Assembly: GCF_003013715.1 (NCBI RefSeq)
Contig: NC_072816.1
Span: forward strand, 124,001 to 188,000
Direction: 5' to 3'
From: Candidozyma auris
Taxonomy: Eukaryota; Ascomycota; Pichiomycetes; Serinales; Metschnikowiaceae
DNA length: 64,000 bases
The notes below the pieces were generated by a model that worked only from the letters and a program-made list of their open reading frames with translations, was not told where the DNA came from and ran no database searches. The position numbers and the translations under genes are program-made. Shown piece by piece: positions 422 through 62,928 of this stretch (positions within the stretch are counted from its first letter, which is position 1; each line of letters starts with the position of its first letter).

Positions 422-430
422 TTTGCAGCC
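422..430 (+). promoter_or_regulatory. TTYGCAGCC motif, upstream of the Gre2-like gene
   Basis: Exact TTTGCAGCC followed by A, about 100 bp upstream of the reductase start. Part of a window-wide intergenic motif set; the binding factor is unknown. Confidence 0.6.
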
Positions 431-881
431 ACCACATTTAAAACCACCAATGACTTGATTGCGATTCAATGCTTGCTTGAAACGTGCATTAAAACGTCCG
501 GTTTTCTCGGTCCTCCTATTCGAGACCGCTAATGCTTTGTCAAAATGCATGTCGCTTAAACCCGCAACGGTTATAGCAACCTCAATAAGCCCTGACAAGC
601 AAGTGGTGTAACTTTTGAAATTACCACATCATATACCGTTGCATCAAAACTTCCAGGAAAAGGGTGATCACTATAATACGTTTTGATTTCCATACTCGAA
701 TGTTGCACCATTGTACGGTCGCTTCAGAATAATTCCTGAAAGATAGGCCTGGCAAGCCTCTGACTCATTCAGCAGGCTGAGGACATTTACAATTCCAAGC
801 GTTTTCGAAACGTTCATTTGCAGACTTCGTGACTTCTTTTACTTTAACTATACACAATTGTTGACTTAATTATTCTCTCTT

Positions 882-890
882 ATCGCAGCC
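882..890 (+). promoter_or_regulatory. Near match to the TTYGCAGCC motif, upstream of ATG9
   Basis: ATCGCAGCC followed by ATT, one mismatch to the motif, about 570 bp upstream of the ATG9 start. Confidence 0.35.
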
Positions 891-1462
891 ATTCACAGTT
901 ACGAACGACATGGGGTCTTTACACTCAAAGCTCAAAATTATCACATGCTTTTACCAGGGAAAACGTCTGACATCACCTACTTTAATTTGACAAATTCGAA
1001 ACATAGTCGACGTCTTATCCTCTAGTGTGTGGTCCTTCGATTCAATGATAATACTGCATATTACTCAGATTCTTGATAAAGTGTCACGGCGATATTGGAC
1101 TCTATTTCTCATTGATTCTTCTTTGTTACGTTTGATTTGAATCATTCCTGCTGCGAAGATTTACAAGTGTTGAAATTCGGTTGTTTTGGTAGCGAAATTA
1201 CGTATGGTATAGAGTTGCATCCGCTTACGTACGCTAGCTCCTAGTCCACCGAATTGATCAGTTTTGATAAATTGTTTATATTCAACTCCGTCTTGGTAAT
1301 TTGGATGTTTGAGGTTCAGATCTCATATCATTAAAGCCTTCACAAACTAGTATAGTCCACTGCTAATCGTGACCTGCATCCAACCCCACAGTGACCGTAG
1401 ATAAGGCAGGCATCCACACATACTACTACGCTAAACGTCGAAACACAATTTCACAACAGAAC

Positions 1463-4050
1463 ATGTCGTTTTACGAAGGCATTGGCTCTTCACGACACAA
1501 GGACCGCTCCCAGACTTCTGACACGTTCTTGTCCCGGGTTTTCGGCCTTCATTCCATATATAACAATTTACCTGAGAATTACAACTATTATGGTCACGAT
1601 CTCGAACTGTTAGGTGGGTCACGAGCTGATACAGAACAACAAGAGCCTTCAGAGGAACTTCAGCCGCCTCTTCTTCAGTCTGAGCTGGATCTGGATCTCG
1701 CTGGACTCTGAGGCCCAGGAGCTGCCTTTCTTAGCCCCTAGACCAGAACCGAGCCACGTTAAATGGGAAAACTTGAGTAATCATGCTCTTGAGCAGTCAG
1801 GGGAGCCTCCTCGTGGTGTCAAATTCAGTGTGCCTAGCCCGCGCGGGTGCTTCCACGAGGCGAAAGACTGGAAATATTGCCTTTGTATAATGGTCCTATT
1901 CAGCATCGCAGAGAGCCTCGTGAGGAGCCAGAGTCGCTTCACACACGCTACCAAAGGAGAATTCGCATAGAAATAGAGCCCTGATCCCTCCGCGTGAGCG
2001 AGCCCTTTATCTATGGGCGAATATTGTCAATATGGATGAGTTTCTCATTGACCTTTACTACTATTATCGAGGAAAAGGATTCGGCAACATTGTCGCAGGT
2101 CGGTGTGTTGACATATTCATCCTCATTTTCATTTTATCCTTTACAACGTTTCTCAAATGGGGAATTGACTACGACTTGTTCTTCAACCGGTGGTCGCTGC
2201 ATTCAGATGTTCAATTGACTTTAAGTGACTTGGTAATTAAAGGCTTCTTTTGGACGCGTGTGCCCTTTTCTGTAAAGCTCCTATTGCTTGGCTTCTCATG
2301 TTACATTGTGCTTCGCATTGTTCAGTTATACTTTGATTATCGGTACAAGTTGCAAGAGCTCAGGAACTTTTACACACAGCTATTAAACATTCATAGCGAG
2401 CAGGAGCTTCTGACCATCCTGTGGTCGTCAATCGTTGAGAGCTTGATGCAACTCAAGGATTACAACTCCTTAACCTCGACGACGCAGAACCTTCCTCCTC
2501 ATTACGTGAATGACCTCAGTTCGAAGGTGAGGCTCAATGCACATGATATCGCTAACAGGATCATGAGGAAGGAGAATTACATGATTGCATTAATCAACAA
2601 GGATGTCTTGGATTTGTCTATTCCAACGCCTTCATTCTTAGGAAATATCCTCTCTAGTAAGGCAGTTCTCACGAGAACTTTAGAGTGGAATCTCAAACTT
2701 TGCATTAATAATTTCATCTTCAACGAAAGCGGGCAGATTAAGCCGGCAATTTTGAAGGAAGGGTCGAGGAACAGCCTATCCCATGAACTTAGTGCTCGTT
2801 TCAAGATGGCGGCTCTCATTAACCTCGTCCTATGCCCTTTCATCGTCATATACTTCGTCCTATTGTATTTCTTCCGGTACTTCAACGAGTACAAATCCAA
2901 CCCTTCGTCTCTAATTGGGTTAAGGCAGTATACGCCTTGGGCTGAGTGGAAGCTACGTGAATTCAACGAACTCCCTCACTTCTTTATGAAGAGGTTGCAA
3001 CTTTCCATTGGTCCCGCCAGCACGTACATCAATCAATTTCCGAGTGGCTTTTTAGTTGTCAATGGCATGACCGTTGTGAATTTTGTACTGGGTGCAATAA
3101 CCGCGGTTTTGGTGATAATGGGATTACTCTTTGACGACGAAGAGCATAATTTTTGGTCATTTGAGCTTTCTCAAAACAGAACCACGCTCTTCTACATCAG
3201 TATCTTTGGAACACTCTGGGCAATTACTTCGAACTCGATGGACTCATCTACTGTGAATCATTCGACTGAAAATCATCGTCAGGGTGCCACATTTTTTTAC
3301 GATCCCGAGGCAAGTTTGCGGTATGTGTCGCAGTTTACTCATTACTTGCCCAGCTCTTGGAATGGACGCCTTCACTCTGTTGAAGTGAAAAATGAGTTCT
3401 GTGAGCTCTACAGCTTAAAAATCATCATCATTTTGAATGAGATCCTAAGCTTAATCTTGACGCCTTTCGTGCTTTGGTTCAAGGTATCCAACAACTCAAG
3501 TGCCATAATTGACTTCTTTAGAGACTACTCCATACATGTTGATGGTTTAGGTTACGTCTGCTACTTTGCTATGTTCAATTTTGAGGAGAAGGACAAGAAT
3601 ATGATGCACAGCTTGAACAAGCGCAAGCTGAAGAAAAAAAAGGATACGAAAGCTCTGAGTAAGGCAAAGCAATCTGATCTGGAACATTCGAGTGACGAAC
3701 TGAGCGATCCTGATCTCCATGACTACTACCAGGATGATAAGATGATCAAGTCTTATATGTACTTCCTTGAGAGCTACGGCAACAGCGATCCCAAAAAGCC
3801 CAAAGCACTGCGCATGCAGCATACAAGCAGTTATCGGGCCCCTCGAGGTACACCAACAGTAAAAGAAGGTTCGTCATCGGCACTCCAGGCATCGAATGGT
3901 TCAAATCGTTGGAACGGGCTGACTTTGGATAGCATCTACGAATCAACCTACGCTTTAGGCGCTGAAGCGTCCACATACAGCGAGCCCCAAAGCCGCAAAG
4001 GTGTTTTGGGGATGATTAATCAATTTTCAAAACAGCAAGCAGGAAGGTAA
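1463..4050 (+). CDS. ATG9: Autophagy protein Atg9, N-terminal region frameshifted
   Basis: Atg9 is the multispanning lipid scramblase whose vesicles seed the autophagosome. The long core frame (2032-4050) carries the family signatures: hydrophobic helices, YINQFP at about 3022-3045, THYLPSSW, LTPFVLWF and VDGLGYVC. The true protein starts upstream. Residues ERALYLWANI, conserved in Atg9, lie in frame directly 5' of the ATG at 2032. The N-terminal TFLSRVFGLHS motif lies in another frame, with an ATG at 1463 (MSFYEGIG). Three single-base shifts are needed to join these: near 1700 (one base extra), about 1838-1870 (one missing) and near 1975 (one missing). Corrected length would be about 862 residues. 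The C-terminal tail after about 3600 is charged and Ser-rich, as expected. Indels in the assembly are more likely than a pseudogene, because the rest is intact. Confidence 0.93.
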
Positions 4051-4219
4051 GGATCAGTTCTTCATGAACCCCACGGTCCAGCACTGCAGGTAAGTGTGAG
4101 GATCGATGGGCAGCGAAATGTTGATAGTATGGAGTGGCCTGCACACACACGCAACACTCTTTTTTGAGAAGAGCATCGCTTAATAGAAATACATAGTTAC
4201 AAAGTACATCGAGTTCGTC

Positions 4220-6577
4220 ATGGCCGGCTCCCAGCTCAAGCAATTAAAAGCCGCCTTGAAGGCAAAAGGACTCGTTGGTCAGACCAACGTGAAAAAGAAG
4301 AATAAAAAGAGCGCTCCATCAGAGACAAGAAAGGATCAGGAAGAAAAGAAAAGGGCTCTTGGCCAGATCCACGACGACTTCAACCTCTTCGATAACAAAA
4401 TAAATCGTGCCAAACACGACTATACTATTATTCAAGGTGGAAAATTTGTCAAGGCAGGTTCCAAACAGCATAATGACGTCGCTAAGTCGAAATCGGGCTT
4501 GGAAAAGGCATTGAAAATGAACTACGAAGCGGACAAGAAGCTTCGTGGCCGCGCAGGTGGACTCGTAGATCGAAGATTTGGTGAGAAAAACAAGAATTTG
4601 ACAGAGGAGGAGAAAATGTTGGAGAGGTTTACCAGAGAAAGACAGGCGTCGCTGAAAAAAAATATGTTTTCCTTGGAGAGTGATGACGAATACGACGATG
4701 ACGGTCTTGCGCTTACGCATTCAGGTAAAGCACTTTCGTTCGAGCAGGATTTTGATGAGGGTGATTTAGGTGTTTCAGACAAACGTTACGTCGATGAAGA
4801 TAGCGAGCAGCCACCAAAGAAGAAGTCCAAAAAGGATGTTATGGCTGAGATCATTGCAAAGTCTAAGTATTACAAAAAACAGAGGCAGATGGAGTTTCAG
4901 AAAACTCAGGATGAAATCATGGACTTGGATGACGAGTTTGGTGATGTTCTTCTGGAAATGAATAAGCAGAAGGCGGCCAATAACGCTTTCAAGCAGAAGT
5001 CGCAGCAGGATATCGAGTATGATCAAAAGATCAGGGAATTGACGTACGACAGAAGAGCTGTTCCTGCTGTTAGAACCAAGACTGAGGAGGAGTTAACAGC
5101 TGAGCATGAAGAGAATGAAGAAGCTTGAGGCTGACAGGTTGAAGAGAATGGATGGTTTGCATGAAGATAGACCCGCTGACGCTGATGATTTAGACGACGA
5201 CTTCTGGGAACGCAACAGTGAAAATGAGGCAGATGGTTTCAGGAGGAATCGGACTCTGAGAAGAAGAGCTCCGAAAGTGAAGAAGAGTCTTCAGGACGCA
5301 GACCAAAAACCCCGGCCGTGTCAATGCCTATAAGTCATGGTCAGCTATTGGAGCACTTGAGGACAAGAAGGAGATGAAGTCATTTCCCACTTCAAGAAGA
5401 TCAGCGAAGTTTATCACCCACGTCTTGCAGCAGGCAATAAGGAGAAAATGGATAACTTCGTGGGGATAATATTTGAGCACATTTTGCATATTTCAGACCA
5501 AGAGGAGGTGGACGCCAAATTAGTCGACGACTTGACGAAGCTTCTTCGAACAATGGCCGAGAAATACAACCATGCTTTGGTAGAGACGGTCAGAACCACA
5601 CTAGAACAAATAAAGACTCGTGTGGTGAAGAATCAGGTCCGCAAGAGCGATCTTGTGTGCTTTGTCATTTTAGGATACGTATTTTCTGCATCAGATCACT
5701 ACCATCTCGTGATCACCCCAGCATTAATTATCATGAACCAGTTTTTGAACAACGAAATCGGAGAAACGCATATTGAGAATATCGGCAAGGGCTTGTTTAT
5801 CTGTGACGTCCTTCTACAATACCAATTTTATGCTAAGCGCTACTATCCCGAGGTGATAAAATTTTTGGAAAGAGCTCTCACGAACCTTCTTCCAGAGCCC
5901 AAGAAGCTCGTTGATGCGCTTGATGCGAGAAAAGTAGATGGGAAAAGCAACCTTGATAAGAAGTTTCACTCGAAGACACAGCCGCGTGCAATCCGTGTTC
6001 TGGAGCTTTTTGAGGTTCCAGACGCTGAGGCGAAGTTCAATTTCATTGCGCGTGCTTTCACTACGATTGATCGAATCGTCGGGATGTGGAAAGAGAAAGT
6101 GCTTTTCTCGAGATTTTGCACCCTCTTATGACCTTGAGCAAGCATGCGCTAAGGTATTTCAGCACGGAGCTCCCACAGTTGCAAAGTTTGGTTGAGAGAA
6201 TGAGCAAGCTTGAAAGTAACCTCACCAAGAGCAGGAAGCCACTCACTTTACAAGAGCATAGACAGTTGGCGATCAAGACGTTCGCACCTAAGTTCGAGGA
6301 AAACTTCAACCCAGACAAGAAGCTGTACGACGAGAACAGAGATAGACAGGAATTGAACAAGATCAAGGCACAAATCAAGAAGGAGAAGAAAGGTGCTCTC
6401 AAGGATCTTCGTAAACAAACGAGATTCGTGGCAAGACAGCAGATCAGCGAGAAGAAGGAGATGTACTCTGCTTACCACCGCAAGATGGCCAACATCGTCA
6501 ACACCATCTCCACTGAGGAAGGTGCAGAGAAGAACCTGTATGAAAGAGAACGAAAGAAGCGAAAGAACCAGAAGTAG
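4220..6577 (+). CDS. NOP14: Nop14, small-subunit processome factor, frameshifted at four points
   Basis: Nop14 is an essential nucleolar protein needed for 18S rRNA processing and 40S assembly. The Lys-rich N-terminus (AGSQLKQLKAALKAKGL), RRFGEKNKNLTEEEKMLERF, DDLDDDFW, the helical-repeat middle (YHPRLAAGNKEKMDNF) and the basic tail (KKEKKGALKDLRKQTRFV) all match the family in order. They occur in alternating frames. One base appears extra near 5115, one missing near 5239, one extra near 5360 and one missing in an A-run near 6097. The net change is zero, giving about 785 residues against about 810 in S. cerevisiae. The ATG at 4220 is clear. Because the gene is essential in yeast, sequence error is the best explanation. 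It follows ATG9 by 169 bp on the same strand. Confidence 0.93.
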
Positions 6578-7288
6578 GTGCCCTCATCTACTAGTGTGCA
6601 TGTCTCAGATACATTGGCTTTATAGAATATCAGGATGTATAAGTACGTCTACTGTTCATGTAAGAAGTAGCTGATTTTTGTACTTTTAAAACGCAAGCTT
6701 CTTACAGTTGATCTTGAAATCAGCTTATAGATGAGCGTTGCTCAATCTAGGAATTAAAAAACGATATTCAGAAGAACGATCCATGATCTTCGCACAAATT
6801 CGTAAATACAAGTCAGATATGTCAAACAATCGCACAATGTACCCACAACAAAGAAAATGAGTGTGATAAATGAATGACAAAGGATTTCACTATTAGTCTT
6901 TTGTGGAATCGCTTTGAACTCAATTTCTTTAAGGCACAAGGCAAAAACGCCAGCCCCTATCCAGTGCGCTTTCACAATTCTCTCAAAAATGGCTGCAAAA
7001 AGCCGCACCGGCCAATCTTAACCATTGCGGCCGACCCACTCCTCAGACCCCCAGCAAACTGACCGAGAAAAATATAAATCTCGAAGAATGTGAAACTCAT
7101 ACTGTGAAATGAAAGAAAATTCCAACCTGACATTCAATTAGTCCACCTGAATCCTTATCGTCCTTCGTTCTACTCCTATTGTCTACATTGTCTCCAGCAA
7201 CCACTCTGCAGAACCGAGCAGCAGTTTATCCGTGCCTCCCGAGCAGCAATCCTTATTATCTCCAACAACACAATCTTCTCTTCATCCA
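6578..7288. other. Intergenic region and PIC2 promoter
   Basis: About 710 bp with no supported gene. It carries one exact motif copy at 6991-6999, flanked by AAAAAT, about 290 bp before the PIC2 ATG. Confidence 0.7.
6991..6999 (-). promoter_or_regulatory. TTYGCAGCC motif, upstream of PIC2
   Basis: Read as GGCTGCAAA on the plus strand within AATGGCTGCAAAA, about 290 bp upstream of PIC2. Confidence 0.6.
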
Positions 7289-9803: not shown

Positions 9804-9812
9804 TTCGCAGCC
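9804..9812 (+). promoter_or_regulatory. TTYGCAGCC motif, upstream of AGE2
   Basis: Exact TTCGCAGCC followed by AAAC, about 270 bp upstream of the AGE2 start. Confidence 0.6.
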
Positions 9813-11365: not shown

Positions 11366-11374
11366 TTCGCAGCC
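11366..11374 (+). promoter_or_regulatory. TTYGCAGCC motif, upstream of CYB5
   Basis: Exact TTCGCAGCC followed by AAAC, about 140 bp upstream of the CYB5 ATG. Confidence 0.6.
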
Positions 11375-11969: not shown

Positions 11970-12749
11970 TAGTGATGAATGCACTTTGCCTTGAAGAAAG
12001 CACGCGGAGGGCTTTATTCATGGGTTAATATCCCTTATTACATATAAGCGAAGAAGACGGCGCTAAAGGTTTCGGCATCGCAGAATACTATAATGATGCA
12101 ACTCTAGATACCAAGACTTATTCAGTGTCAAGCTGCAGTCACTGCCCTTCGAGTGTCATTCCCTACGCTTTTAGAGCCCCTATGAAGGAGAGCAGATCAC
12201 CTTATAGACAAGCTGCCCTCTAAAGTACATCTTTCGATCTCGGACAAGAGCAGATTCCTGCTTATAGAGAGCATTTCATACTTTCACCAGCCGTCTTCTC
12301 ATCGAAACTTACGTTTCAATGTTTGAACGCCTATGCATATCTCATTTAAGAACAATTGGAGGCAACTCATATTCCTATTTATTTTACGCATCAACATGAC
12401 TATAGACAATCTCGATGCTCCAGTGAACAAACGCAAGAAAAAGCAATGACTTCAGTCTTTTTCTTTTTGTCATCTATTCAATTCCCTGGCGTACTTTCGC
12501 AGCCGCTTACTCAGTCCCCACCTCCCCCGGGGAGCGTAAACAACTTATCACACTATCAACTCTAATAGACAAATCTCACAAGAAATCATAAATGCTTTTG
12601 TAGATTATCGTCCTCACGTAATATTCCATATGTAATCAAATCGGCGTTACCCAAGCCTTCATCCTATCCCTGTCCTGCATGGGGCACAACATCAGACCTA
12701 AGATAATCCAGTCTCTATTTTCTAACGAACCTAACGATTCTCCAACAAC
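11970..12749. other. Intergenic region and bZIP gene promoter
   Basis: About 780 bp with no supported gene. It holds one exact motif copy at 12496-12504, about 245 bp before the bZIP start. Confidence 0.7.
12496..12504 (+). promoter_or_regulatory. TTYGCAGCC motif, upstream of the bZIP gene
   Basis: Exact TTCGCAGCC, here followed by G rather than the usual A. Confidence 0.55.
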
Positions 12750-13975: not shown

Positions 13976-13984
13976 TTTGCAGCC
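13976..13984 (+). promoter_or_regulatory. TTYGCAGCC motif, upstream of STI1
   Basis: Exact TTTGCAGCC followed by AAAA, about 440 bp upstream of STI1. Confidence 0.55.
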
Positions 13985-14423: not shown

Positions 14424-16196
14424 ATGTCTGCTGAAGAATATAAAGCTGAGGGTAACAAGCTCTTTGCAGCCAAGGAGTTTGACAAGGCCATTGAGCAGTT
14501 TACTAAAGCCATCGAAACTTCTGATGTGCCTAACCACGTCTTGTACTCCAACAGGTCTGCTTGCTACGCTTCATTGAAGAACTTCACTAAGGCATTGGAA
14601 GACGCAGAAAAGTGCGTGGAGATTAACCCTACTTGGGCCAAAGGTTACAACCGTGTTGGCGCTGCCCAGTACGGAATAGGCAACTTGGAAGATGCAAAGA
14701 AATCTTACTCCAAGGCTTTGGAGTTGGACTCACTGAACGCCATGGCCAAGAGCGGTTTGCAAGCCGTTGAGGATGCAGAGAACTCCCAGAGCCCCGACAT
14801 GGGTTTGGGTAAGATTTTCTCCGACCCCAACTTGATGAACAAGTTGAAGAGCAACCCTAAGACGGCCGAAATGATGAACGACCCAGCTTTGGTCGCCAAA
14901 GTATTGCAATTGCAACAAAATCCTAAAGCAGGCATGCAGACCATGCTCTCTGACCCACGCATGATGACGATTATGGGTGTGTTGATGGGCATTGATTTGG
15001 ACATGTTCCAGGGAAAAGATGCTCCTGGTAAGCCTGAGGAGAGTTCTTCAGCCTCAAAATCCGAGACTGCGAAGGAGGAGCCCAAGCAGGAATTCAAGGA
15101 GGAGTCGCTGTCAAAGCCCTCTTCTAGCTCCGAGTCTAATCCCGCCCCACTGAGCTCTGAGTCCAAGTCTGAGGCTACGGAGGATGTCGAGATGGAGGAC
15201 TCAAGTAAGGTAGAAGCTGATGCTGCCAAGGCTGAAGGTAATGCCTTGTACAAGCAGAGGAAGTTTGACGAGGCTATTGCAAAGTACGACCATGCATGGG
15301 AGCTTTACCAGGATATCACATACCTAAACAACAGAGCTGCCGCTGAATTTGAAAAAGGTGACTACGATGCTGCCATTAAGACTTGCGAAAAGGCAATTGA
15401 TGAAGGCAGAAGCATGAGAGCTGACTACAAGATCATAGCTAAGTCGTTTGCCAGAATTGGTAATTGTTACTTGAAGAAAGACGACTTGGAGAACGCTGCC
15501 AAGTTCTTTGACAAGTCTTTGACCGAGCATAGAACTCCAGACGTTTTGAGCAAGTTAAGAAATACACAAAAAGAGATCAAGGTCAGAGAGGCCAAGAGTT
15601 ACATCAACCCCGAAAAGGCCGAGGAGGCGAGATTGGAGGGTAAAGAATATTTCACAAAGGGTGACTGGCCCAACGCCGTTAAGGCTTACACTGAGATGGT
15701 GAAAAGAGCTCCCGAAGATGCCAGAGGGTACTCCAACAGAGCTGCTGCGTTGGCCAAGTTGATGTCATTTCCTGATGCTGTCGAAGACTGTAACAAAGCC
15801 ATTGAATTGGATCCTACATTCATCAGAGCGTATATCAGGAAAGCCAATGCGCAGTTGGCTATGAAGGAATACTCTCAAGTAATCAACACATTAAATGACG
15901 CTCTTGCAAAGGATCAAGAGTTGAACGGTGGAAAGAACGCCAACGAAATCAACCAGTTGATGCACAGAGCAATGTCGCAGCGTTTTGCAGCAATCGAGGG
16001 CGAAACTCCGGAACAAACGATGGAGAGAGTGTCTAAGGACCCAGAAATAGTTGAAATTTTGCAAGACCCTGTCATGCAGGGTATATTGGGTCAAGCCAGA
16101 GATAATCCAGCGGCATTGCAAGAGCACATGAAGAACCCAGAGGTGGCAAAGAAAGTCAACATGTTGATTGCTGCTGGCGTAATTCGTACTCGTTAG
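14424..16196 (+). CDS. STI1: Hsp90/Hsp70 co-chaperone Sti1 (Hop)
   Basis: Sti1 bridges Hsp70 and Hsp90 in the cytosol and hands over client proteins. All domains are present in a 590-residue protein, the usual length. TPR1 starts at EYKAEGNKLFAAKEFDKAIE (residues 5-24), followed by a first DP domain with Asp-Pro repeats and Met-rich helices at about residues 130-190. An acidic/Ser-rich linker runs at about 200-265. TPR2A starts at AAKAEGNALYKQRKFDEAI, TPR2B at EARLEGKEYFTKGDWPNAV, and the C-terminal DP2 domain (DPVMQGILGQARDNPAALQ) is near residue 545. The ATG is followed directly by SAEEYK, as in orthologues. The upstream heat-shock element indicates Hsf1 control. Confidence 0.97.
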   Translation: MSAEEYKAEGNKLFAAKEFDKAIEQFTKAIETSDVPNHVLYSNRSACYASLKNFTKALEDAEKCVEINPTWAKGYNRVGAAQYGIGNLEDAKKSYSKALELDSLNAMAKSGLQAVEDAENSQSPDMGLGKIFSDPNLMNKLKSNPKTAEMMNDPALVAKVLQLQQNPKAGMQTMLSDPRMMTIMGVLMGIDLDMFQGKDAPGKPEESSSASKSETAKEEPKQEFKEESLSKPSSSSESNPAPLSSESKSEATEDVEMEDSSKVEADAAKAEGNALYKQRKFDEAIAKYDHAWELYQDITYLNNRAAAEFEKGDYDAAIKTCEKAIDEGRSMRADYKIIAKSFARIGNCYLKKDDLENAAKFFDKSLTEHRTPDVLSKLRNTQKEIKVREAKSYINPEKAEEARLEGKEYFTKGDWPNAVKAYTEMVKRAPEDARGYSNRAAALAKLMSFPDAVEDCNKAIELDPTFIRAYIRKANAQLAMKEYSQVINTLNDALAKDQELNGGKNANEINQLMHRAMSQRFAAIEGETPEQTMERVSKDPEIVEILQDPVMQGILGQARDNPAALQEHMKNPEVAKKVNMLIAAGVIRTR

Positions 16197-18869: not shown

Positions 18870-19353
18870 AGCTTCTTGAGATTCGAATGAGCGACAGCCG
18901 GCAAAACTGTAAATGTGCCTCAATGTCAGCAGCGCACTTGATATATATGTACTTTTTGGCAGCGTTCGATGAGAGTGGAAGGCGCAGGAGGCGCTTGTGT
19001 GCACGAGCTGAAACAATACGACTGTTGAGAAAGATGGCCGAGATGACAACTTGTACTCGAAAAAATCGCACTGCCCGATGGCTGCGAAACACGACTGGGT
19101 GCATGAATATACGACCAAGGGGAAGGTGGTACAAAGAAATGTCGAGAGGAAAGTGTTTCCTGTTGTTTTCTTATTCGTTCGAAGTTTTGTGTGAGGCGAA
19201 TGTAATGGGAACGCATCGTAATTTTCATGTGCTTCATGGACGCAACGGTGGGGATGATGAGTAAGCGGGTTGACGCCTTCTACCGTTTCTGAGCCTTCTC
19301 AAAGCTGCTGTCAAGCCTGCCAGTAGTATCTCTTTTAGAATTGTAATTTCTTT
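18870..19353. other. Intergenic region between tandem Zn2Cys6 genes
   Basis: About 480 bp between factor B's stop and factor A's start, with a motif copy at 19080-19088 and no supported gene. Confidence 0.7.
19080..19088 (-). promoter_or_regulatory. TTYGCAGCC motif, upstream of Zn2Cys6 factor A
   Basis: GGCTGCGAA on the plus strand, within GATGGCTGCGAAAC, about 210 bp upstream of factor A. Confidence 0.55.
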
Positions 19354-21708: not shown

Positions 21709-21781
21709 GGCACGTCTTATGTTGACCTTTGGAACAGTTCTGGTGATGGTAGATCTTGGCCAGTATTGCATACGGCACTTC

Positions 21782-21790
21782 GGCTGCAAA
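21782..21790 (-). promoter_or_regulatory. TTYGCAGCC motif, close to Zn2Cys6 factor B
   Basis: GGCTGCAAA on the plus strand, about 75 bp upstream of the chosen start of factor B. Confidence 0.5.
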
Positions 21791-21972: not shown

Positions 21973-21981
21973 GGCTGCGAA
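21973..21981 (-). promoter_or_regulatory. TTYGCAGCC motif, upstream of Zn2Cys6 factor B
   Basis: GGCTGCGAA within ATAATGGCTGCGAAATCC, about 265 bp upstream of factor B. Confidence 0.6.
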
Positions 21982-22447: not shown

Positions 22448-22456
22448 GGCTGCAAA
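22448..22456 (-). promoter_or_regulatory. TTYGCAGCC motif, upstream of NAT1
   Basis: GGCTGCAAA within GAAATGGCTGCAAAATG, about 400 bp upstream of NAT1. Confidence 0.55.
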
Positions 22457-22859: not shown

Positions 22860-25115
22860 ATGGTTCTCAGAAAACCGATCTTCGCCAATAAAGAAGACGC
22901 CAACGCCCGCGAGGCGTTGAAGCTCTACGAGGGGAAACAGTACAAGAAAGCGCTCAAGCTTATCGACCAGAACCTCAAAAAGAACTCGAGCCATGCTGAG
23001 TCTTTGGCGATCAAAGGTTGTTGCAATTTTCAGTTGGGCCATAAAAGTGATGCTGAGCACTACATAGTTAAGGCCACAGCAAAAGATTCAAACAATTACT
23101 TGGTCGACCATCTTGCTGGTATTTATTATAGAAGCGTTGACAATTACCAAGAGGCTGCAAAATGGTTCAAAGCGGCGGTCGACAACGGGCTGCCCAACAC
23201 GTTGCTCTTGAGAGACTTGTCGCTATTGCAGTCACAAGTGAGAGACTACAAAAACTTGAGAGACTCGAGACAAGCGTTTTTGGAATCGCAACCGGGCTAC
23301 AGAGCAAACTGGACCGCTGTAGCTGTGGCGCACCACCTAAATAAGGATTACGACGCTAGTGTGAATACTTTGGCTAAGATCGAGGATATCATCAAGGAGC
23401 ACTTGCAAGAGCAGGATCGTTACGAGCAAAGCGAGTGTGTGCTTTACAAGAATAGCATCATTGCCGAGGCAGGTAACTACGCAAGAGCGTTGGAAGATTT
23501 GGAGAAAGATGTTAGCGAAATCAGAGATATGACCTCATTCATGGAGTACAAGGCGAAGTACCTCTTGTTGCTAGGCAAGAAGAAAGAAGCTTCCATGGTG
23601 TACCGTCAGTTGTTGCAACGGAACCCAGACAACGTGGGTTACTTCAATCTTTTAGAAACCTGCTTGGACACTGCTTCAGGGCCCGTGGAAACCAGATTGG
23701 CTCTCTACGATAAGTTGGCCTCTTTCTATCCACGCTCTGATCCTGCTGTATTTTTGCCATTGGGGTTCTTGCCAGCTTCCCACCCAGAGTTCCAGAAGAG
23801 AGCATCTCTGTATATTTTGGGACAATTGAAGCGTGGTGTTCCTGCAACATTTGTCAATGTGAAACCGCTTTACAAGAATAAAAGAAAGATTGTGGTGATT
23901 GAGAAAATCGTCAAGGACTTCTTCGCCAACGAAGTGCCTGGATTTAACCCTACAGTGTTTGTTTGGGTCTCCTATTTCTTATCGCAGCATTACCTTTACT
24001 TGAACAAGTTGGATGTTGCTATGGAGTATATTCAGCAAGCTCTTAATCATTCCCCTACACTTGTGGAATTGTACATTCTCAAAGCAAGAATTACCAAGCA
24101 CTTGGGCAAGATCGAGCAAGCCAAAGATATCATGGAGGAGGGCCGCAAACTAGACTTGCAGGACAGATTTGTGAATTCTAAGGCGGCCAAATATTTGCTC
24201 AGATCTAACCATGTGGATGAGGCCATCGAAGTTGTATCATTATTCACCAAGCTAGATGAGTCTGCTGTCAACGGTCTCAAAGACTTGCACACCATGCAAG
24301 CAAACTGGGTTTTGGTGGAGAGCGCTGAGGCGCACGTGAGATTATACGAAGAAAAGCTCTCTGAAGTGCGTGCTTTACCTGAAGACGCTGCTCAAAGTGA
24401 AGTATCTGATTTGCAGGATCAAGCTGATATTTACAGAGGTTTGGCATTGAAACGGTACATGGCGATCGTTAAAGTGTTCCAGACCTTCCAGTCAGATCAG
24501 TTTGACTTCCACTCTTATTGCATGAGACGAGGTACTCCTCGTGACTACATTGATACCTTGAAGTGGGAGGATAAGCTTCATTCCACGCCTATTTACGTTC
24601 GTGCTATAAGAGGCCTTCTTAAGTTATACTGGGAAATCTACCATCAACAAAAGCATACTTCCAATGGCAGCGCGAAGCCAGACACAAGGAAGAATAAAAA
24701 GAACAAACCGCTCAATGTCAAGAAGAAGAGTGAAATGATTGCCAAGGTTGAATCGGAAAAGGACGACGCAGACCCCTTGGGTGCCAAGTTGCTTTCTGAC
24801 TTGAAAGCCAATGATCATTTATTAAAGGATATGGAGAAATACGTCAACCAATTGACTAGCGAAGCTGACGATTACAAGTGCACGTGGGAGCTCGCTTTTG
24901 ATTTGCAAGTTGAGGATTCCAAATATGTGCTTGCCTTACAAGCTCTCAAGAGCTTGAGCAAACTTGAGGGATCTGCCAAGTCGGCTAATGTGTTGTCCAG
25001 AAAAAAGATTCTCGAAGAAGCATTAGCACAGGACACTAGTGTCAATCCGGCCATCGTAAAGGTGGTTCAGAAGGGCCTTGAAAGCGCATTTCCCAATTCA
25101 ACGGAGGCAAATTAA
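22860..25115 (+). CDS. NAT1: NatA N-terminal acetyltransferase auxiliary subunit Nat1 (Naa15)
   Basis: Nat1 is the TPR scaffold that wraps the catalytic subunit Ard1 and docks NatA at the ribosome exit tunnel, where it acetylates nascent Ser, Ala, Thr and Gly N-termini. The 751-residue protein begins with TPR helices (LYEGKQYKKALKLIDQNLKK, residues 21-40). It continues with RANWTAVAVAHHLNKDY, then FVWVSYFLSQHYLYLNKLDVA, all typical of Naa15. A Lys-rich segment (KPDTRKNKKNKPLNVKKK) lies at about residues 605-622, where orthologues also have a basic stretch. It is shorter than the S. cerevisiae protein (about 850 residues). Its stop codon overlaps that of SFT2 on the opposite strand. Confidence 0.95.
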   Translation: MVLRKPIFANKEDANAREALKLYEGKQYKKALKLIDQNLKKNSSHAESLAIKGCCNFQLGHKSDAEHYIVKATAKDSNNYLVDHLAGIYYRSVDNYQEAAKWFKAAVDNGLPNTLLLRDLSLLQSQVRDYKNLRDSRQAFLESQPGYRANWTAVAVAHHLNKDYDASVNTLAKIEDIIKEHLQEQDRYEQSECVLYKNSIIAEAGNYARALEDLEKDVSEIRDMTSFMEYKAKYLLLLGKKKEASMVYRQLLQRNPDNVGYFNLLETCLDTASGPVETRLALYDKLASFYPRSDPAVFLPLGFLPASHPEFQKRASLYILGQLKRGVPATFVNVKPLYKNKRKIVVIEKIVKDFFANEVPGFNPTVFVWVSYFLSQHYLYLNKLDVAMEYIQQALNHSPTLVELYILKARITKHLGKIEQAKDIMEEGRKLDLQDRFVNSKAAKYLLRSNHVDEAIEVVSLFTKLDESAVNGLKDLHTMQANWVLVESAEAHVRLYEEKLSEVRALPEDAAQSEVSDLQDQADIYRGLALKRYMAIVKVFQTFQSDQFDFHSYCMRRGTPRDYIDTLKWEDKLHSTPIYVRAIRGLLKLYWEIYHQQKHTSNGSAKPDTRKNKKNKPLNVKKKSEMIAKVESEKDDADPLGAKLLSDLKANDHLLKDMEKYVNQLTSEADDYKCTWELAFDLQVEDSKYVLALQALKSLSKLEGSAKSANVLSRKKILEEALAQDTSVNPAIVKVVQKGLESAFPNSTEAN

Positions 25116-25735: not shown

Positions 25736-25781
25736 GTTGGTGGCACCAAGAGATCTCTCGGGCCGTGATATGAGCATGGTG

Positions 25782-25944: not shown

Positions 25945-25953
25945 GGCTGCGAA
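25945..25953 (-). promoter_or_regulatory. TTYGCAGCC motif, upstream of SFT2
   Basis: GGCTGCGAA within TTAAATGGCTGCGAAAGG, about 210 bp upstream of SFT2. Confidence 0.6.
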
Positions 25954-29174: not shown

Positions 29175-30302
29175 AAGATTTGACTAGTGTATAAAATTTT
29201 GTGTGACTGGAGCCTGACAAGCTTGAAGGTGGTGTCCGGGAAGCTTCCTACAGTTGAGTGGGGGACTATGTAGGCCACCGAGAATTGCTAGCGGAAGGAG
29301 TCGTCCTCTTTTAGGCTTTTCATTAGAAATTGAGAAATTAGGGAAATGATATTTTGAAGATGATGGTTTGATAGTATAATTGTATTCAAATCCTGATATT
29401 CTTCCTCACTTTGGTGGAGGGTGTTTTCGAGACGATGTGCTGGAGCAATGTGTATGGGAATTTTGCACCCATTCTCTCGCGAGACAATAACAAAGGCTAC
29501 ACGAATTAAGGATGTGATCTGGAATTAGGCTCTGGTTTCATATGGACAGAGAAAGCAAATCTTGTTCATTGAAGTATAATGTGATGTCAAAATGACTTGT
29601 GTTTTTATTGAGGATTGTTGTGAGTAGAGAATATAATTACCGAGCGACTGTTTGAGTACTTACTACAAGATTGCAACACCTTGACGGCTCAGCCAAATTG
29701 GTAGCGAAAGAGATCTTGCAAGCTCAAAATCACCACTAAGAATTTATATTTCTACAGCGCTATAAAACACCAGGGCTTAAAGATTCCCCTAGTCGAAACT
29801 TGTGGGGGTTGCCTTTAAGGATGATTAGAATGGGCTGCTCCATCGATTTGTCAAACAAGGCTAGATGCTTTTCTCAGTAATTTCAATGAAGTGTAAGAAA
29901 AATGTCCAAAGTATCATCTTCATTCAAGGAACAGAAAGGTCATTTGACTAGCCAGTCAAGCACTACCTCATCAATTAGGCAGCAGAGTCATTTTGCAGCC
30001 ATTACTAGCGCCTAAGAAAAGCGACTCACACTACATCAGCTCTGTACCACCTATTCGTAAAACCTGATCAACAATCGAAATTGGATTGTTCAAAACCGAA
30101 AAACACCATCTTGTAATGTCTACAAACATTTTGGCGACTTCTCCACCTACACCTTCCATCTTCCCCAGACCCTGCCTCCTGCAGACATGCTACCATATCA
30201 CATCACCACTGCCAAGTCTAAATCTAACCCAACTGCCAACACCCTTGTATATTACAACTTTCTTCTTATAAGGCTTCGAAATTCACTATAAATCAACTCA
30301 AC
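29175..30302. other. Divergent intergenic region, MSB3 / RIM21
   Basis: About 1.1 kb, no supported gene or RNA. It contains one exact motif copy at 29992-30000. Confidence 0.7.
29992..30000 (+). promoter_or_regulatory. TTYGCAGCC motif, upstream of RIM21
   Basis: TTTGCAGCC within GTCATTTTGCAGCCATTAC, about 300 bp upstream of RIM21. Confidence 0.6.
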
Positions 30303-39103: not shown

Positions 39104-39750
39104 TGGTAAATATACTATGTTTCTGAAGTGTTGATGAAGATGTTTTCCATATGCAAGACAAACACATAGAGGAAAGGAAAATTGGAGATAGTGAGATTAT
39201 TACTCCAAACACGGCAAAAAATAAAAAATTAAAAAAAAAGATAGTTTGAGTTCTGAACATAGCTGCTTATCGTTATATCTATGAAGTGGATTTATGCATT
39301 CTCCGACCATTTGCTCGCTGTTGGAAAATGGCTGCAAAACGGAGCTTGGAAGTACTTCACGCTTACAACAAGCAGAGCAAAGTCAATTGGTCCACAAATT
39401 CAACCCCATTATCGGAGTTGTGATTCACACTTTGAGATAAGTATCAAGCCATAGCGGCACCGTGAGTATCTTCCAAATCTCATCAATTACTCGTATCTCT
39501 CCCAAATTTTGTCCAGCACCAATAAAATTCTCAACACTACGATTGCCCACTTTTTCATTCATGGCGTTGTCGTTAATATATGTGCATATCTATATGGGTT
39601 GGAATCCTTGTGGCCAACCATCTTTTCTCTAATTGTCTGAGTGAGACTCTCTCATCTCGTCAAATGTTCAGCATACCATTCTCCACAACCATTGATCATT
39701 GTTGGTGAATCTGACGCTTTATTCCATCTCGAGAACCCTTTCTTCCCGTC
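39104..39750. other. Intergenic region and ABD1 promoter
   Basis: About 650 bp from FSH1's stop to ABD1's start. It has a poly(dA) tract (about 39219-39240) typical of a nucleosome-free promoter, and one exact motif copy (39330-39338). No gene seen. Confidence 0.65.
39330..39338 (-). promoter_or_regulatory. TTYGCAGCC motif, upstream of ABD1
   Basis: GGCTGCAAA within GAAAATGGCTGCAAAACGG, about 225 bp upstream of ABD1. Confidence 0.6.
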
Positions 39751-40730: not shown

Positions 40731-40739
40731 GGCTGCGAA
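40731..40739 (-). promoter_or_regulatory. TTYGCAGCC motif, upstream of FSH1
   Basis: GGCTGCGAA within TAGCGGCTGCGAAACTT, about 235 bp upstream of FSH1, in the 291-bp gap before the RIT1 stop. A T11 run lies nearby at about 40674-40684. Confidence 0.55.
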
Positions 40740-48919: not shown

Positions 48920-48928
48920 TTCGCAGCC
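48920..48928 (+). promoter_or_regulatory. TTYGCAGCC motif, upstream of ECM21
   Basis: TTCGCAGCC within ATTTTTCGCAGCCAGTTT, about 540 bp upstream of ECM21. Confidence 0.5.
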
Positions 48929-49082: not shown

Positions 49083-49091
49083 GGCTGCAAA
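49083..49091 (-). promoter_or_regulatory. TTYGCAGCC motif, second copy upstream of ECM21
   Basis: GGCTGCAAA within AAAATCGGCTGCAAATC, about 375 bp upstream of ECM21. Confidence 0.5.
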
Positions 49092-52395: not shown

Positions 52396-53463
52396 TCAGA
52401 CCTTGAAGCTCTCAGAGGTCTTCTTGTCGACATACTCGCCGTTCTTCTCCTCAAGCTCCCCAAGCCATTCGTACAACACACCCAAGTCACGAGAACCCAA
52501 GTCTTCACGCTCACAAGCCTTCAAGTACCACTTTCTTGCCGTGGGGCCCAAAAACAACGCACGGTCGTACTGGTTGGCGCAGTCAGTAGCCAAAACCAAG
52601 TCCTTCTTTGTCAACTTGGTAATGAAACCGCCCTTGTAGCCCACATCAGCAGGCAAGTTGTTCTCAGGGTACACTCCAGGGATTGGGCAGTTGTCAACAG
52701 AAGCCCACGACTTACCAGTAGAAACCGAAACGAGCTTGGCGTAGTGCTGCAAGTTCAAGCCAAAGGACTTGGCCAATTGAAACGAGTCAGCCACAGCCAA
52801 GTTGGTCACGGCCAACAAGTAGTTGTTGGACAATTTTGCAGCCAAACCTGCACCGTGGTTCTTCCCACAGGGAAAGATGTTGGTGCCCATCATGTTCAAC
52901 AACTTGACCAAATCAGGAGCTACGTCCTTGTGGTCTTCACGAGAAAGCATGAACGACAAAGTTCCCTTTCTGGCGCCAGCAACACCTCCAGATACTGGGG
53001 TGTCGATGAAATCAAACTCAGGGAGCTCCTTCTTCACCATCTGGTGCACCTCAACCGAGGTAGGGATGTCAATGGTAGACGAGTCCAAGAACGTCGTCAG
53101 TCCCGTCTGAGGGTTCTTCTTATAAGCGTCCACGAGCTCGCTTACCACTCCCTTGACGTGCTTTCCCTCAGGCACCATCAGCACGATAAAGTCCAACTGA
53201 GCGTCCACGTCGGTGACGAATTTTGGAATGGCGTCCAATGTGTGGAGTTGACTCTTGGCCTCTGGTTTCTGCTGAGTGACCGTGTCCACAAACGAAGCCG
53301 TGGCCTCGGGCACCGTGTCGAAAACATACAACTTATCCAGAGGCTCCATTTTCGCATATATGTGTCTTGCCATGTGCTGGCCCATCTGGCCAAGGCCGAT
53401 GAAGCCGTAGTTGGCCCGGAGCGTGGGCGTGGTGGACAAAAAGCGAGCAAACCGAAGGGACAT
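52396..53463 (-). CDS. 3-hydroxyisobutyrate dehydrogenase, mitochondrial
   Basis: This enzyme oxidises 3-hydroxyisobutyrate to methylmalonate semialdehyde in valine breakdown. The first 17 residues (MSLRFARFLSTTPTLRA) are basic and Ser/Thr-rich, a mitochondrial presequence. The NAD-binding loop is GFIGLGQMGQHMARH at about residue 20. The substrate motif is DTPVSGGVAGARKGTLSFM, and the catalytic lysine lies in GAGLAAKLSNNYLLA. Length is 355 residues. The frame has another ATG at 53562 but the 53463 start gives a direct presequence. S. cerevisiae lacks a close orthologue of this pathway, while CTG-clade yeasts have it. Confidence 0.93.
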   Translation of the reverse strand: MSLRFARFLSTTPTLRANYGFIGLGQMGQHMARHIYAKMEPLDKLYVFDTVPEATASFVDTVTQQKPEAKSQLHTLDAIPKFVTDVDAQLDFIVLMVPEGKHVKGVVSELVDAYKKNPQTGLTTFLDSSTIDIPTSVEVHQMVKKELPEFDFIDTPVSGGVAGARKGTLSFMLSREDHKDVAPDLVKLLNMMGTNIFPCGKNHGAGLAAKLSNNYLLAVTNLAVADSFQLAKSFGLNLQHYAKLVSVSTGKSWASVDNCPIPGVYPENNLPADVGYKGGFITKLTKKDLVLATDCANQYDRALFLGPTARKWYLKACEREDLGSRDLGVLYEWLGELEEKNGEYVDKKTSESFKV

Positions 53464-54409: not shown

Positions 54410-54418
54410 TTTGCAGCC
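54410..54418 (+). promoter_or_regulatory. TTYGCAGCC motif in the 53.5-55.4 kb intergenic region
   Basis: TTTGCAGCC within CATATTTTGCAGCCATTC, about 950 bp from either flanking start. It may mark an unannotated promoter. Confidence 0.5.
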
Positions 54419-54936: not shown

Positions 54937-54945
54937 TTCGCAGCC
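54937..54945 (+). promoter_or_regulatory. TTYGCAGCC motif, upstream of the DUF1989 gene
   Basis: TTCGCAGCC, followed by C, about 430 bp upstream of the DUF1989 start. Confidence 0.5.
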
Positions 54946-55377: not shown

Positions 55378-56250
55378 ATGTCCTCCTTAGCAGAAAGCTC
55401 CCAGCCTGCTCAACGTACTACTTACGGCTTGCCCAAGCCGAAACCAGCTTACTTTCCGCAACCAGGGTCTAAGATCTATGCTGATAGGGCTCTCTACAAG
55501 AAGATCGCTGAAGCTGGCAAGACAAAACAGTCCCAGACTCTCTGCCCTCCTCGCAACGGTATAGCCGTGAAGGTGCCTGCAAAATCGATCTTTCGTGTTT
55601 TCACCCCCGACGGACCTCAGGTGTGTGACTTGAACATCTGGAACTTCCACAACCCCAAGGAACGCTTCTGGGCTGCTAGAACCAGACAGTTGCACCTGGC
55701 CCACGTTTCCACGTACGACCGCTTGTGGTCGAACTTGCCTTACTTGCGCCCTTTGGCTACCATCATCGAAGACCCCTTGGGCGGCAGACACGACGAGTGG
55801 GGTGGCAGAATCCACGACACTTTGGGCACAAGGTGCGATCCGTACGTCGATAAGCTCATTTCCGGCGAAGATAACGACGACCATTGCCATTCGAACTTGA
55901 TCAGGGCCATAAAGCCTTATGGTCTCGGGGAGTTTGATGTGCACGACGTGTTGAACCTTTTCCAGGTGACTGGCTTGACTGAAAACGACCAGTACTTCAT
56001 GGAGGCTCTGCCAGCGGAGCCTGGAAGCTACATCGACTTGTTTGCAGAGACAGACTTGCTTGTGGCAATATCGGCGTGTCCTGGCGGCGATTTGAGCAAT
56101 TGGGACTGGGGGAGAAGGAGGAGACACCAAGATGAAGGACAATTGCAGAGCCTTGGGCTTGGAGGTGTGGACTTTGAACAACGAAGAGGAGGTGTTGAAG
56201 GGTTGAAAGCACCCGAGTTTGCTCCTTACAAGGGCAATCACGGATTGTAA
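55378..56250 (+). CDS. DUF1989 / urea-carboxylase-associated protein, compensating frameshifts
   Basis: A 290-residue protein of the DUF1989 family, found next to urea carboxylase or amino-acid genes in other organisms; its reaction is not well established. Conserved blocks are FRVFTPDGPQVCDLNIWNF, the TRQLHLAHVSTYDRLWSNLP region, GRIHDTLGTRCDPY with likely metal ligands, and LFAETDLLVAISACPGGDLS. After NWDWG the frame reads an odd Arg/Gln/Gly-rich stretch until about 56205. In the +1 frame that stretch reads LGLEVWTLNNEEEVLKG, which looks native. So one extra G in the G5 run at 56108-56112 and one missing G near 56205 cancel out. The start at 55378 is the first ATG; upstream begins at TTG. 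Confidence 0.85.
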   Translation: MSSLAESSQPAQRTTYGLPKPKPAYFPQPGSKIYADRALYKKIAEAGKTKQSQTLCPPRNGIAVKVPAKSIFRVFTPDGPQVCDLNIWNFHNPKERFWAARTRQLHLAHVSTYDRLWSNLPYLRPLATIIEDPLGGRHDEWGGRIHDTLGTRCDPYVDKLISGEDNDDHCHSNLIRAIKPYGLGEFDVHDVLNLFQVTGLTENDQYFMEALPAEPGSYIDLFAETDLLVAISACPGGDLSNWDWGRRRRHQDEGQLQSLGLGGVDFEQRRGGVEGLKAPEFAPYKGNHGL

Positions 56251-57751: not shown

Positions 57752-57844
57752 CACTTTGACTTTTAGATGAGCATCGCGCACTATGTTTCTACATTATCAA
57801 CACTTTCAGCTACTACTGACGAAGGCTGTAGTTCTCTGTATCTA

Positions 57845-59743: not shown

Positions 59744-59859
59744 GTTGTGAAATAAGATATTTGACTCCTGAAGGTCTTGTTTATTGAAACTGAAAAGTTG
59801 AGGAGGTCCAGAGTAGTAGTGAACTTTTTATCGCGATGCGCATCAACTGCTACTTTGCT

Positions 59860-60714
59860 ATGGACTATAGTGACGAAGAAACACAACCTCAGATCAGGCC
59901 TGTCTTCAAGAAAAAAGCGGTGAAGAAGGTACGAGCGTCGAAAAGAGCTTACGAAGATGTACTTGAGGATGTTGCCGAGAAGTCTCCTGTGACAACGGAG
60001 AAGCCCACAAAGAGCAAAGCTTTAGAGAGACTTCTACGGTTTAAAACTCTATCAGGGGAGGTAAACGAGGAGAGTAATGAAAAAGACAAGGATGTTGATG
60101 AGACTGCAACCTCCAAGAAGGAAGCTGCTCAATCTGGGCTGAACACAGCGTACAAGGTGCTTGAAATCAAAGAACCGGCAAAGACCTTCTCGCTACGAGA
60201 GTCCCATTTCCGAGAGAAACCGGTGGCGGTGGAGAACGAGTATGGCAGCGACTGGGAAAATGATAAACCAGCAATTGTTAAGGAAGGATCCGTTTCTGAC
60301 CACGAGATGGACATTGCCGATGTTGAGTACACGGTGCTGGCGCCCCAGGCAGATCCTGATCAATACTACACGGAGATTGTGCTGGATGTTGACATGGACG
60401 AGGGGGAAGAGAAGAAACTGCCGCGTACGGCGTCGTCTGTGCCAGAGTATATTATGCAATTGAGAAAGAACACTGAACAGCATCAGGAGACTTTAGAGAG
60501 TGCCAGGCGGCGATTAGAGGTTTCAAAATGGCGTGTGGAGCAATTAGAAGCTCGGAAGGCACAGCTACTAAAGCAAGCCGCCAATGGGAGACAGCTAGAT
60601 GTGGCTGATGTTGAGCAGTTTATTAGAGGATTGTATCAAGAGGAGAAGAAGGTAACACCAATGAAGGGCAGCAATGACGATGACGTGGACATGATGCTGC
60701 TTTTTGCTCAATGA
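59860..60714 (+). CDS. Ntr2-like spliceosome disassembly factor (tentative)
   Basis: A 284-residue charged protein. It opens MDYSDEETQPQIRPVFKKKA, has SKALERLLRFKTLSG at about residue 49, and a coiled coil at about 205-245 (QLRKNTEQHQETLESARRRL, VEQLEARKAQLLKQ). The layout of an acidic/basic N-terminus, TYKVLxxKEP-like middle and C-terminal coiled coil resembles Ntr2, which with Ntr1 and Prp43 takes apart intron-lariat spliceosomes. Similarity is weak and I would not rely on the name. An in-frame ATG at 59836 would add 8 residues. The frame and codon use look native. Confidence 0.6.
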   Translation: MDYSDEETQPQIRPVFKKKAVKKVRASKRAYEDVLEDVAEKSPVTTEKPTKSKALERLLRFKTLSGEVNEESNEKDKDVDETATSKKEAAQSGLNTAYKVLEIKEPAKTFSLRESHFREKPVAVENEYGSDWENDKPAIVKEGSVSDHEMDIADVEYTVLAPQADPDQYYTEIVLDVDMDEGEEKKLPRTASSVPEYIMQLRKNTEQHQETLESARRRLEVSKWRVEQLEARKAQLLKQAANGRQLDVADVEQFIRGLYQEEKKVTPMKGSNDDDVDMMLLFAQ

Positions 60715-61308: not shown

Positions 61309-61317
61309 TTTGCAGCC
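61309..61317 (+). promoter_or_regulatory. TTYGCAGCC motif, upstream of the candidate ncRNA
   Basis: TTTGCAGCC within CTTTTTGCAGCCAAAACTT. It lies about 210 bp before the TATA box at 61527, the same spacing seen at protein genes, though no protein gene follows. Confidence 0.6.
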
Positions 61318-61526
61318 AAAACTTCTACCACTTCTGAAACGAAGCGTTCACCAGAAGTCCCTGCAGTGCTGCTTCTATCTAGATTCTGTTTGTGTGACGA
61401 ACGTGAGGACATAACTTTCCCGTGAGTGTTGCTTGTTTTTATCCTTACGTTATTATCAAGCAAGGATACTGGAGCCGCCTTTCCTATGTCGCTTGTATTT
61501 TGTGGCGTGTCGGTGTTTTGAGACAA

Positions 61527-61533
61527 TATAAAG
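61527..61533 (+). promoter_or_regulatory. TATA box before the candidate ncRNA
   Basis: TATAAAG, just before the base composition turns G/T-rich. Confidence 0.5.
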
Positions 61534-61559
61534 CCCTATGCTTGATTGTAATGCTTCTG

Positions 61560-62718
61560 GCGGTGATGGGAAAACTGGTTTGGTCTGGATTGGTTGTCCG
61601 GTTGGGAGTGCTTGGCCAGGTACTCTTAGCTAGACACTTTTTCCAAAGATCGAGCCATTGTGAAGCTTTCGCTAGCAGTTCTTAACCGGTTGGAGTTGTC
61701 AGTGAGAGCGGAGCACGAGGTCGTTGCCGGGAGCTTTGCAATTGAGCTGGAGCTCTCTGATTGTTAACGTGGTTGGGTATCTACGAGCTACTTCGCCGTT
61801 AAAGTCGATAAAGGGCCCCTTTGGCGGTGAAGGAAGCTGCGTGTCGTGTTGTGGGTGTTGGTACAGTGTCAGCTACTGACTCTAGTTGGCATTGGATTAT
61901 ATAGTGAGAAAGTGTCTTGGTACTGGGTGCTGTCTCATTTTTAGCTAGGGGCTGGCAACTCCACATTGTGTGGTATTGGCCTGACTCTACGCCACAAGAG
62001 TCAGGTTGTGTTTTTGTGATAGTCTCGGCTTTTCGTCACTGGTGATTTCAGAAAGAAGCTGGGCTTCCTGATCGATTTAGGTTGCGATGATCGGGAGTAG
62101 TGTTCGTGCAACACAAGCGGCCCCTCTTTCGAAGAGGCGGGTTTCTGGGGATACAGCTACAGGCGGTTTACTGCTTGTGGTTTTGAAGGAGGCGGGTGGG
62201 ACTTCCTGTTACGTCAAGATCACGAGTAGCAGGTCGTAGCCTTTAAGGCAGTGATCGTGGGGTCTGGGGGATTTTTTCTTTTGTTTTTCTTGCTGCTAAT
62301 TAGTTGTTCGGTTGTGGCTTCCCGGCTAGTCAGATCACGCTGGTCAGGTCGTAGTAGGCTCAAAGTCCAAACTGATGCCTACATGGTCAACTGTTAGTTG
62401 GAACTTTCTGTCTACAGTGGTCTCCTCGGTCTGGTGGGCATAACTGGCCGTTGTACTGTGCTGCTAATGTCCAAAACGTCGAGAGACTAAAGTACCTAGT
62501 CTGGAATCCTCTTTTTGCCTCAGTCTGGTCGGAACATCACAGCTGAGAGAAGCGCCTGGTAGGAGTCAGCTACTAGGCGTTTGGGCGGTGGTCCCATTGA
62601 GATGCTGGTCTCTTGAGTTTGGCGGCTCCCCATGTCATCTGGCATGGGCAAAAGGATGATTTCGCAGTCTTCCTTCCTCGTAAGGCTACGGGGTTTTTCT
62701 TTTTTTTTTTTTTTTTTT
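61560..62718 (+). ncRNA. Candidate long structured noncoding RNA, identity unknown
   Basis: About 1.15 kb with no credible open frame. The plus strand is markedly G/T-rich, unlike nearby intergenic DNA. Strong hairpins are visible: a 9-bp stem 61980-61988/61997-62005; CCTCTT/AAGAGG at 62123-62137; a 10-bp stem with one G-U pair at 62553-62562/62570-62579; a 6-bp stem at 62629-62634/62643-62648; and a 7-bp stem with a G-U pair at 62676-62682/62687-62693. The last is followed directly by T5, C and a run of 19 T. Ends are guesses from the TATA box and T-run. I found no U1, U2, U6, SRP or RNase P signature. Telomerase RNA is possible on length and setting but no template was identified. Confidence 0.45.
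62676..62718 (+). terminator. Hairpin plus T-run at the end of the candidate ncRNA
   Basis: A 7-bp stem with an AGGC loop is followed by T5, C and T19. It resembles a Pol III stop, but an earlier T6 at 62272-62277 would also stop Pol III. A Pol II transcript, or two Pol III transcripts, are alternatives. Confidence 0.4.
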
Positions 62719-62919
62719 CTTTCTTTTCCTTTTCTTTTAGGTATGTTTTGAGTAGTAGTTCTCACTAGGTCTGGCAAAGGCTGAGGTGGCCCAAGGATCG
62801 TGTAGGATGTGCAAGGGTACTTAGGATTCTCAAACTATCACTAGATTTATTTTTTAGAGGCATTTCATCACGACGATGGAATTACCTTGGATCTGAACTG
62901 AAGTGAGAGCTTCATATAT

Positions 62920-62928
62920 TTCGCAGCC
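62920..62928 (+). promoter_or_regulatory. TTYGCAGCC motif, upstream of ARG3
   Basis: TTCGCAGCC within ATATTTCGCAGCCAATTT, about 275 bp upstream of ARG3. Confidence 0.6.

Follow-up and report, generated by a model that had tools for sequence, protein, structure and literature searches.

A recurrent promoter word in Candidozyma auris as the probable site of a general regulatory factor

The word TTYGCAVCCR is abundant throughout the genome of the CTG-clade yeast Candidozyma auris and, where gene positions were analysed, lies chiefly in promoters. We conclude that it is probably bound by a single abundant, sequence-specific protein serving this yeast as a general regulatory factor. The word was noticed, in the form TTYGCAGCC, in an original prediction made from the letters of a 64-kb stretch of DNA (contig C5:124001-188000, here called the window). 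Copies were counted by pattern search in the whole genome (12.25 Mb, seven contigs), with the reversed word, its letters read backwards, as the control. Position was analysed in a 264-kb sample made up of the window and contig C1:1,000,001-1,200,000, with our own calls of open reading frames (ORFs), 122 in all, as gene models.

Results

The window contains 23 exact copies of TTYGCAGCC, where 100 dinucleotide shuffles yielded 1.37 on average and never more than 6, a stronger signal than the over-representation first claimed. With one mismatch permitted, there are 66 matches where 29.9 ± 5.4 are expected. Genome-wide the word has 2,468 copies and its reverse 85, and enrichment confined to the window, one of the findings that the original prediction had named as its refutation, is therefore excluded; the window does stand above the genome mean of about 13 copies per 64 kb. 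For TTYGCAGCCA the counts are 2,049 and 17, with the strands in balance (1015 forward, 1034 reverse). Position 7 also accepts A (633 copies vs 52 reversed) and C (446 vs 37), and the T variant exceeds its control (141 vs 23) yet reaches only 7% of the G form.

A substitution scan of the intergenic DNA of the sample gave a similar picture of specificity. TTYGCAGCCA is present there 38 times, replacement of position 7 by A or C leaves 14 and 9 copies, G at position 10 leaves 6, and all remaining single changes give 0-3. The degenerate form TTYGCAVCCR has 66 noncoding sites in the sample, compared with a mean of 1.16 and a largest value of 16 when its letters were rearranged 3,000 times, and in an 8-mer ranking of intergenic DNA that excluded near-homopolymers, pieces of the word lead after TATA repeats. 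The consensus form is TTYGCA(G>A>C)CC(A>G), usually with T before (46 of 62 sites) and W-T after. Its core carries 1-2.2 bits, and beyond the core and the next few bases each position carries at most 0.26 bits in 47 aligned copies.

The 66 noncoding sites fall in 75.1 kb (0.878 per kb) and a further 17 fall in 188.9 kb of coding DNA (0.090 per kb), a density about tenfold higher outside called genes than inside, and 62 of the 66 are flanked by two called ORFs. On contig C1, 21 of the first 30 forward matches lie outside ORFs of at least 150 codons, at 69-719 bp from the nearest start codon. Among intergenic regions 300 bp or longer, a site is present in 14 of the 19 divergent ones and in 21 of the 46 tandem ones; for shorter regions the figures are 0 of 5 and 3 of 23, respectively. 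When the first 600 bp 5' of each gene were considered, a site was found for 44 of the 92 genes whose upstream region spans 250 bp or more and the reversed word for none of them; among genes with less upstream DNA a site was found for 1 of 30, so that the claim that short upstream regions lack the motif mostly held, with one exception.

The clustering 200-300 bp upstream of genes described in the original prediction was confirmed. Eighteen sites lie in this interval 5' of a start codon, where random placement within those intergenic regions gives 8.5 ± 2.7 (matched in 0 of 2000 randomisations), and no other distance class was conspicuous in the sample. Occurrence in either orientation holds for the genome as a whole, but tandem regions show a bias: there the sense strand carries TTYGCAVCC in 27 of 36 cases (binomial p 0.004).

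Base composition was averaged at nucleosome scale over noncoding bases only. Around 63 sites, AT content on both sides falls from 0.590 at 25-125 bp to 0.541 at 150-250 bp, compared with 0.565 at both distances from random places in the same regions, and the pattern at the sites arose in 0 of 1000 randomisations. A repeat with a larger gene set (62 sites) gave 0.594 and 0.548, against 0.566 and 0.567 at random places, a difference again unmatched in 1000 randomisations. Additionally, runs of at least six T are over-represented 5' of sites (16 vs 7.9, p 0.005). The composition around sites agrees with open DNA flanked by a nucleosome on each side, for which it is a proxy only.

Table 1. Exact TTYGCAGCC matches in the window, placed against ORF calls.
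Feature	Position	Strand	Context
Motif copy	422..430	+	Intergenic by ORF calls; 1.6 kb ahead of ORF at 2032
Motif copy	6991..6999	-	289 bp upstream of mitochondrial carrier gene 7289-8284
Motif copy	9804..9812	+	450 bp upstream of ORF 8376-9353(-)
Motif copy	11366..11374	+	141 bp ahead of 93-codon ORF
Motif copy	12496..12504	+	245 bp upstream of bZIP-like gene 12750-13862
Motif copy	13976..13984	+	439 bp upstream of STI1-like gene 14424-16196
Motif word	14463..14471	+	Within STI1-like coding sequence; probably chance
Motif copy	19080..19088	-	About 210 bp upstream of zinc-cluster ORF 18309-18869(-)
Motif copy	21782..21790	-	10 bp upstream of zinc-cluster gene 19354-21771(-)
Motif copy	21973..21981	-	201 bp upstream of zinc-cluster gene 19354-21771(-)
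Motif copy	22448..22456	-	403 bp upstream of NatA auxiliary-subunit gene 22860-25115; in 149-codon ORF, status uncertain
Motif word	23153..23161	-	Within NatA auxiliary-subunit coding sequence; probably chance
Motif copy	25945..25953	-	About 170 bp upstream of Got1/Sft2-like gene 25112-25777(-); 601 bp from gene at 26555(+)
Motif copy	29992..30000	+	302 bp upstream of PalH/RIM21-like gene 30303-31916
Motif copy	39330..39338	-	226 bp upstream of mRNA cap methyltransferase gene 37430-39103(-)
Motif copy	40731..40739	-	233 bp upstream of FSH1-like gene 39751-40497(-)
Motif copy	48920..48928	+	538 bp upstream of arrestin-domain gene 49467-51344
Motif copy	49083..49091	-	375 bp upstream of arrestin-domain gene 49467-51344
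Motif word	52835..52843	+	Within dehydrogenase coding sequence; probably chance
Motif copy	54410..54418	+	Divergent region, 53562(-) to 55378(+)
Motif copy	54937..54945	+	432 bp upstream of DUF1989 gene 55378-56250
Motif copy	61309..61317	+	594 bp beyond end of ORF 59836-60714(+); without downstream ORF in first ORF set
Motif copy	62920..62928	+	Intergenic in first ORF set; close to window end

The exact copies in the window are listed in Table 1. The earlier count of 20 intergenic and two genic copies stands for the 20 outside confident genes; inside genes there are three, the one overlooked being at 23153 in the NatA auxiliary-subunit gene. The flank alignment bore out a trailing A in 15 of the 20 copies outside genes. 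A Pfam scan of 28 window ORFs, some of them fragments of one gene, found matches for 26 and none for two. The families adjoining sites include an STI1-type co-chaperone, two zinc-cluster proteins, a NatA subunit, a Got1/Sft2-like protein, an mRNA cap methyltransferase, a serine hydrolase, PalH/RIM21, an arrestin, a DUF1989 protein, a mitochondrial carrier and a bZIP protein. These Pfam families point to no shared pathway, in agreement with the claim that the target genes are functionally unrelated.

Two further features of the window concern gene structure. The NOP14 gene is apparently split (4220-6577), with ORFs 4220-5128 and 5448-6131 matching separate Nop14 parts and a third ORF, 6128-6577, coming after them; assembly indels, introns or real lesions are the candidate causes. 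A zinc-cluster regulator also appears split (16264-18869), with Zn2Cys6 in ORF 18309-18869(-) and fungal_trans in ORF 16264-18342(-), fragments that overlap by 34 bp. Outside the window, both ends of contig C1 (L051 1-371 and L052 790-1000) carry an imperfect telomere-like repeat of about 20 bp, CTTAGGTGGTGTCTGGGTTT, with A/T stretches that vary.

Discussion

The interpretation of the word as a general regulatory factor site is partly supported by the results presented here. Its specificity and genome-wide abundance and, in the sample, its promoter placement beside unrelated genes, its preferred distance from the start codon and the surrounding composition all agree with this interpretation, and the sense-strand bias belongs to the same body of observation. 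We infer that a protein binds the word, displaces nucleosomes and acts instead of Reb1, Abf1 or Rap1. The putative factor would bind the consensus at promoters of unrelated genes, chiefly 200-300 bp before the start codon, and once bound would keep nucleosomes off the promoter; their exclusion would then leave an open region where transcription could start. If true, the word ranks with the most frequent promoter elements in this yeast, yet no described factor was found for it, and the reading of promoter and expression data from this yeast group would change.

Several observations weigh against such a general role. About half of the adequate upstream regions (48 of 92) have no site, and promoters in the sample with and without a site do not differ significantly in TATA, poly-A or CACGTG content. 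The excess of A runs 3' of sites is not significant (12 vs 8.0, p 0.13). Convergent regions contain a site in 1 of 22 cases but total only 2.5 kb, which makes them a weak negative control. The ORF calls set a limit of their own, with 17 of the 83 sample sites inside called coding sequence, and on contig C1 the other nine of the first 30 forward matches lie inside ORFs of at least 150 codons. Furthermore, the sample shows mild enrichment of some known words too, and the putative factor therefore need not be the sole one.

A site upstream of only 44 of 92 adequate genes would also be expected of an ordinary regulator that is active only under certain conditions and controls a very large regulon, as opposed to a chromatin-organising general factor, and in our opinion the tandem bias of 27 to 9 exceeds what a purely chromatin-opening site would show. 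We nevertheless hold this explanation to be unlikely, given several thousand copies, unrelated neighbouring genes and a nucleosome-scale composition centred on the site. The sites are mostly intergenic and strand-balanced genome-wide, as they might be if they served replication origins or another chromosome-level function and their promoter location were secondary to open DNA. This seems very unlikely, since TTYGCAVCCA has more than 3,000 copies in 12.25 Mb, too many for origins, and since start codons anchor the peak and the orientation is biased relative to the gene.

The bias toward the sense strand in tandem regions would likewise suit a word that acts in RNA, within 5' untranslated regions. 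Yeast 5' leaders are usually shorter than 200-300 bp, so the peak at this distance before the ATG lies beyond their usual length, and strand use is equal genome-wide; on these grounds we regard action in RNA as less probable still than a role in origins. The high copy number could in principle mean that the word is the surviving core of a dispersed repeat, an origin to which we give next to no credence. The flanks of the 47 aligned copies carry little information, and the word is therefore not a repeat family. Together, these considerations leave the general regulatory factor as the reading we prefer.

The Aft/Rbf1 family of WRKY-GCM1 proteins offers a candidate binder, although this is a weak lead. 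The WRKY-GCM1 domain is related to transposase DNA-binding domains. Pfam AFT is found at three loci of the genome, two over the cut-off and one, the Rbf1 orthologue, below it. The Rbf1 orthologue was named via homologues and is 88% identical to Candidozyma haemuli Rbf1, and the Rbf1 DNA-binding domain is strongly conserved in the CTG clade (27 of 48 homologues aligned). In the accessible part of PMC4694146 the Aft1/2 consensus is given as YRCACCC, which is matched by the C variant alone, YGCACCCR (446 genome copies). In contrast to Aft sites, the motif favours G over C at position 7 by about 4.6 to 1 and does not use A for the first G (TTYACAVCCR, 2 noncoding copies in the sample, control 2), and it adjoins unrelated genes where Aft sites serve the iron regulon. 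YRCACCCR itself occurs 24 times in noncoding sample DNA and its reverse 18 times, and a single fit to the Aft consensus among many known yeast motifs can be chance. We propose only tentatively, and with more doubt than confidence, that a WRKY-GCM1 protein (Rbf1 or an Aft-like relative) took over the general-factor role, recognising TTYGCAVCCA and organising chromatin at about half of promoters.

Zinc-finger proteins were considered as well. YY1/REX1 sites, whose core is GGCAGCCAT, have GCAGCCAT in common with the motif; a literature search on this core gave nothing, and the YY1 word CCGCCATNTT has a single copy in 82.6 kb of sample intergenic DNA. Among the C2H2 genes found, inspection was confined to the two with four-finger clusters, which by eye we take to be Azf1-like and Zap1-like.

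The original prediction also held that the word matches no known site. This is softened by the fit of the C variant to the Aft1/2 consensus and by the closeness of the Rpn4 site. The Reb1 site TTACCCGG is rarer than its reverse (116 vs 360 genome-wide). The Rpn4 proteasome element (PACE) TTTGCCACC, first given as GGTGGCAAA, is one substitution from the motif and is not enriched (116 vs 123 reversed genome-wide). In sample intergenic DNA, the Abf1 site RTCRYNNNNNACG is not over-represented (9 vs 20 reversed), and the Abf1, Rap1 and CACGACA words that were tried showed no enrichment. A search for the Abf1 protein with PF04684 gave no match in the genome, and control genomes were likewise without a match. 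Cbf1-type words are mildly enriched in the same DNA, RTCACRTG occurring 18 times vs 7 reversed and TCACGTGA 7 times vs 0.9 expected. Other enriched intergenic words of the sample are CTGGCGCC (9 vs 0.7) and GTGTGCAG (12 vs 2.5).

No published description of the motif appeared among the matches listed in searches with its letters and related topics, which is weak evidence that the motif is unpublished; subscription papers are thinly covered. A description is also absent from the accessible parts of PMC2897762, PMC11221756, PMC12248020, PMC7559329, PMC7565893, PMC4694146, PMC4161868 and PMC551538.

General regulatory factors are known to turn over between yeast lineages, with species-specific words, and CACGAC is such a word specific to C. 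albicans, according to the accessible part of PMC2897762. Since this turnover is established, the kind of element described here is already known, and if our reading is true, the word would provide a clean case of the turnover seen between other yeasts (PMC2897762, as far as accessible). The word itself differs from those bound by the general regulatory factors of budding yeasts. Like the sites of Reb1, Abf1, Rap1 and Cbf1, however, it is one specific word found at many promoters of unrelated genes, in promoter position and with a composition resembling that around an open region.

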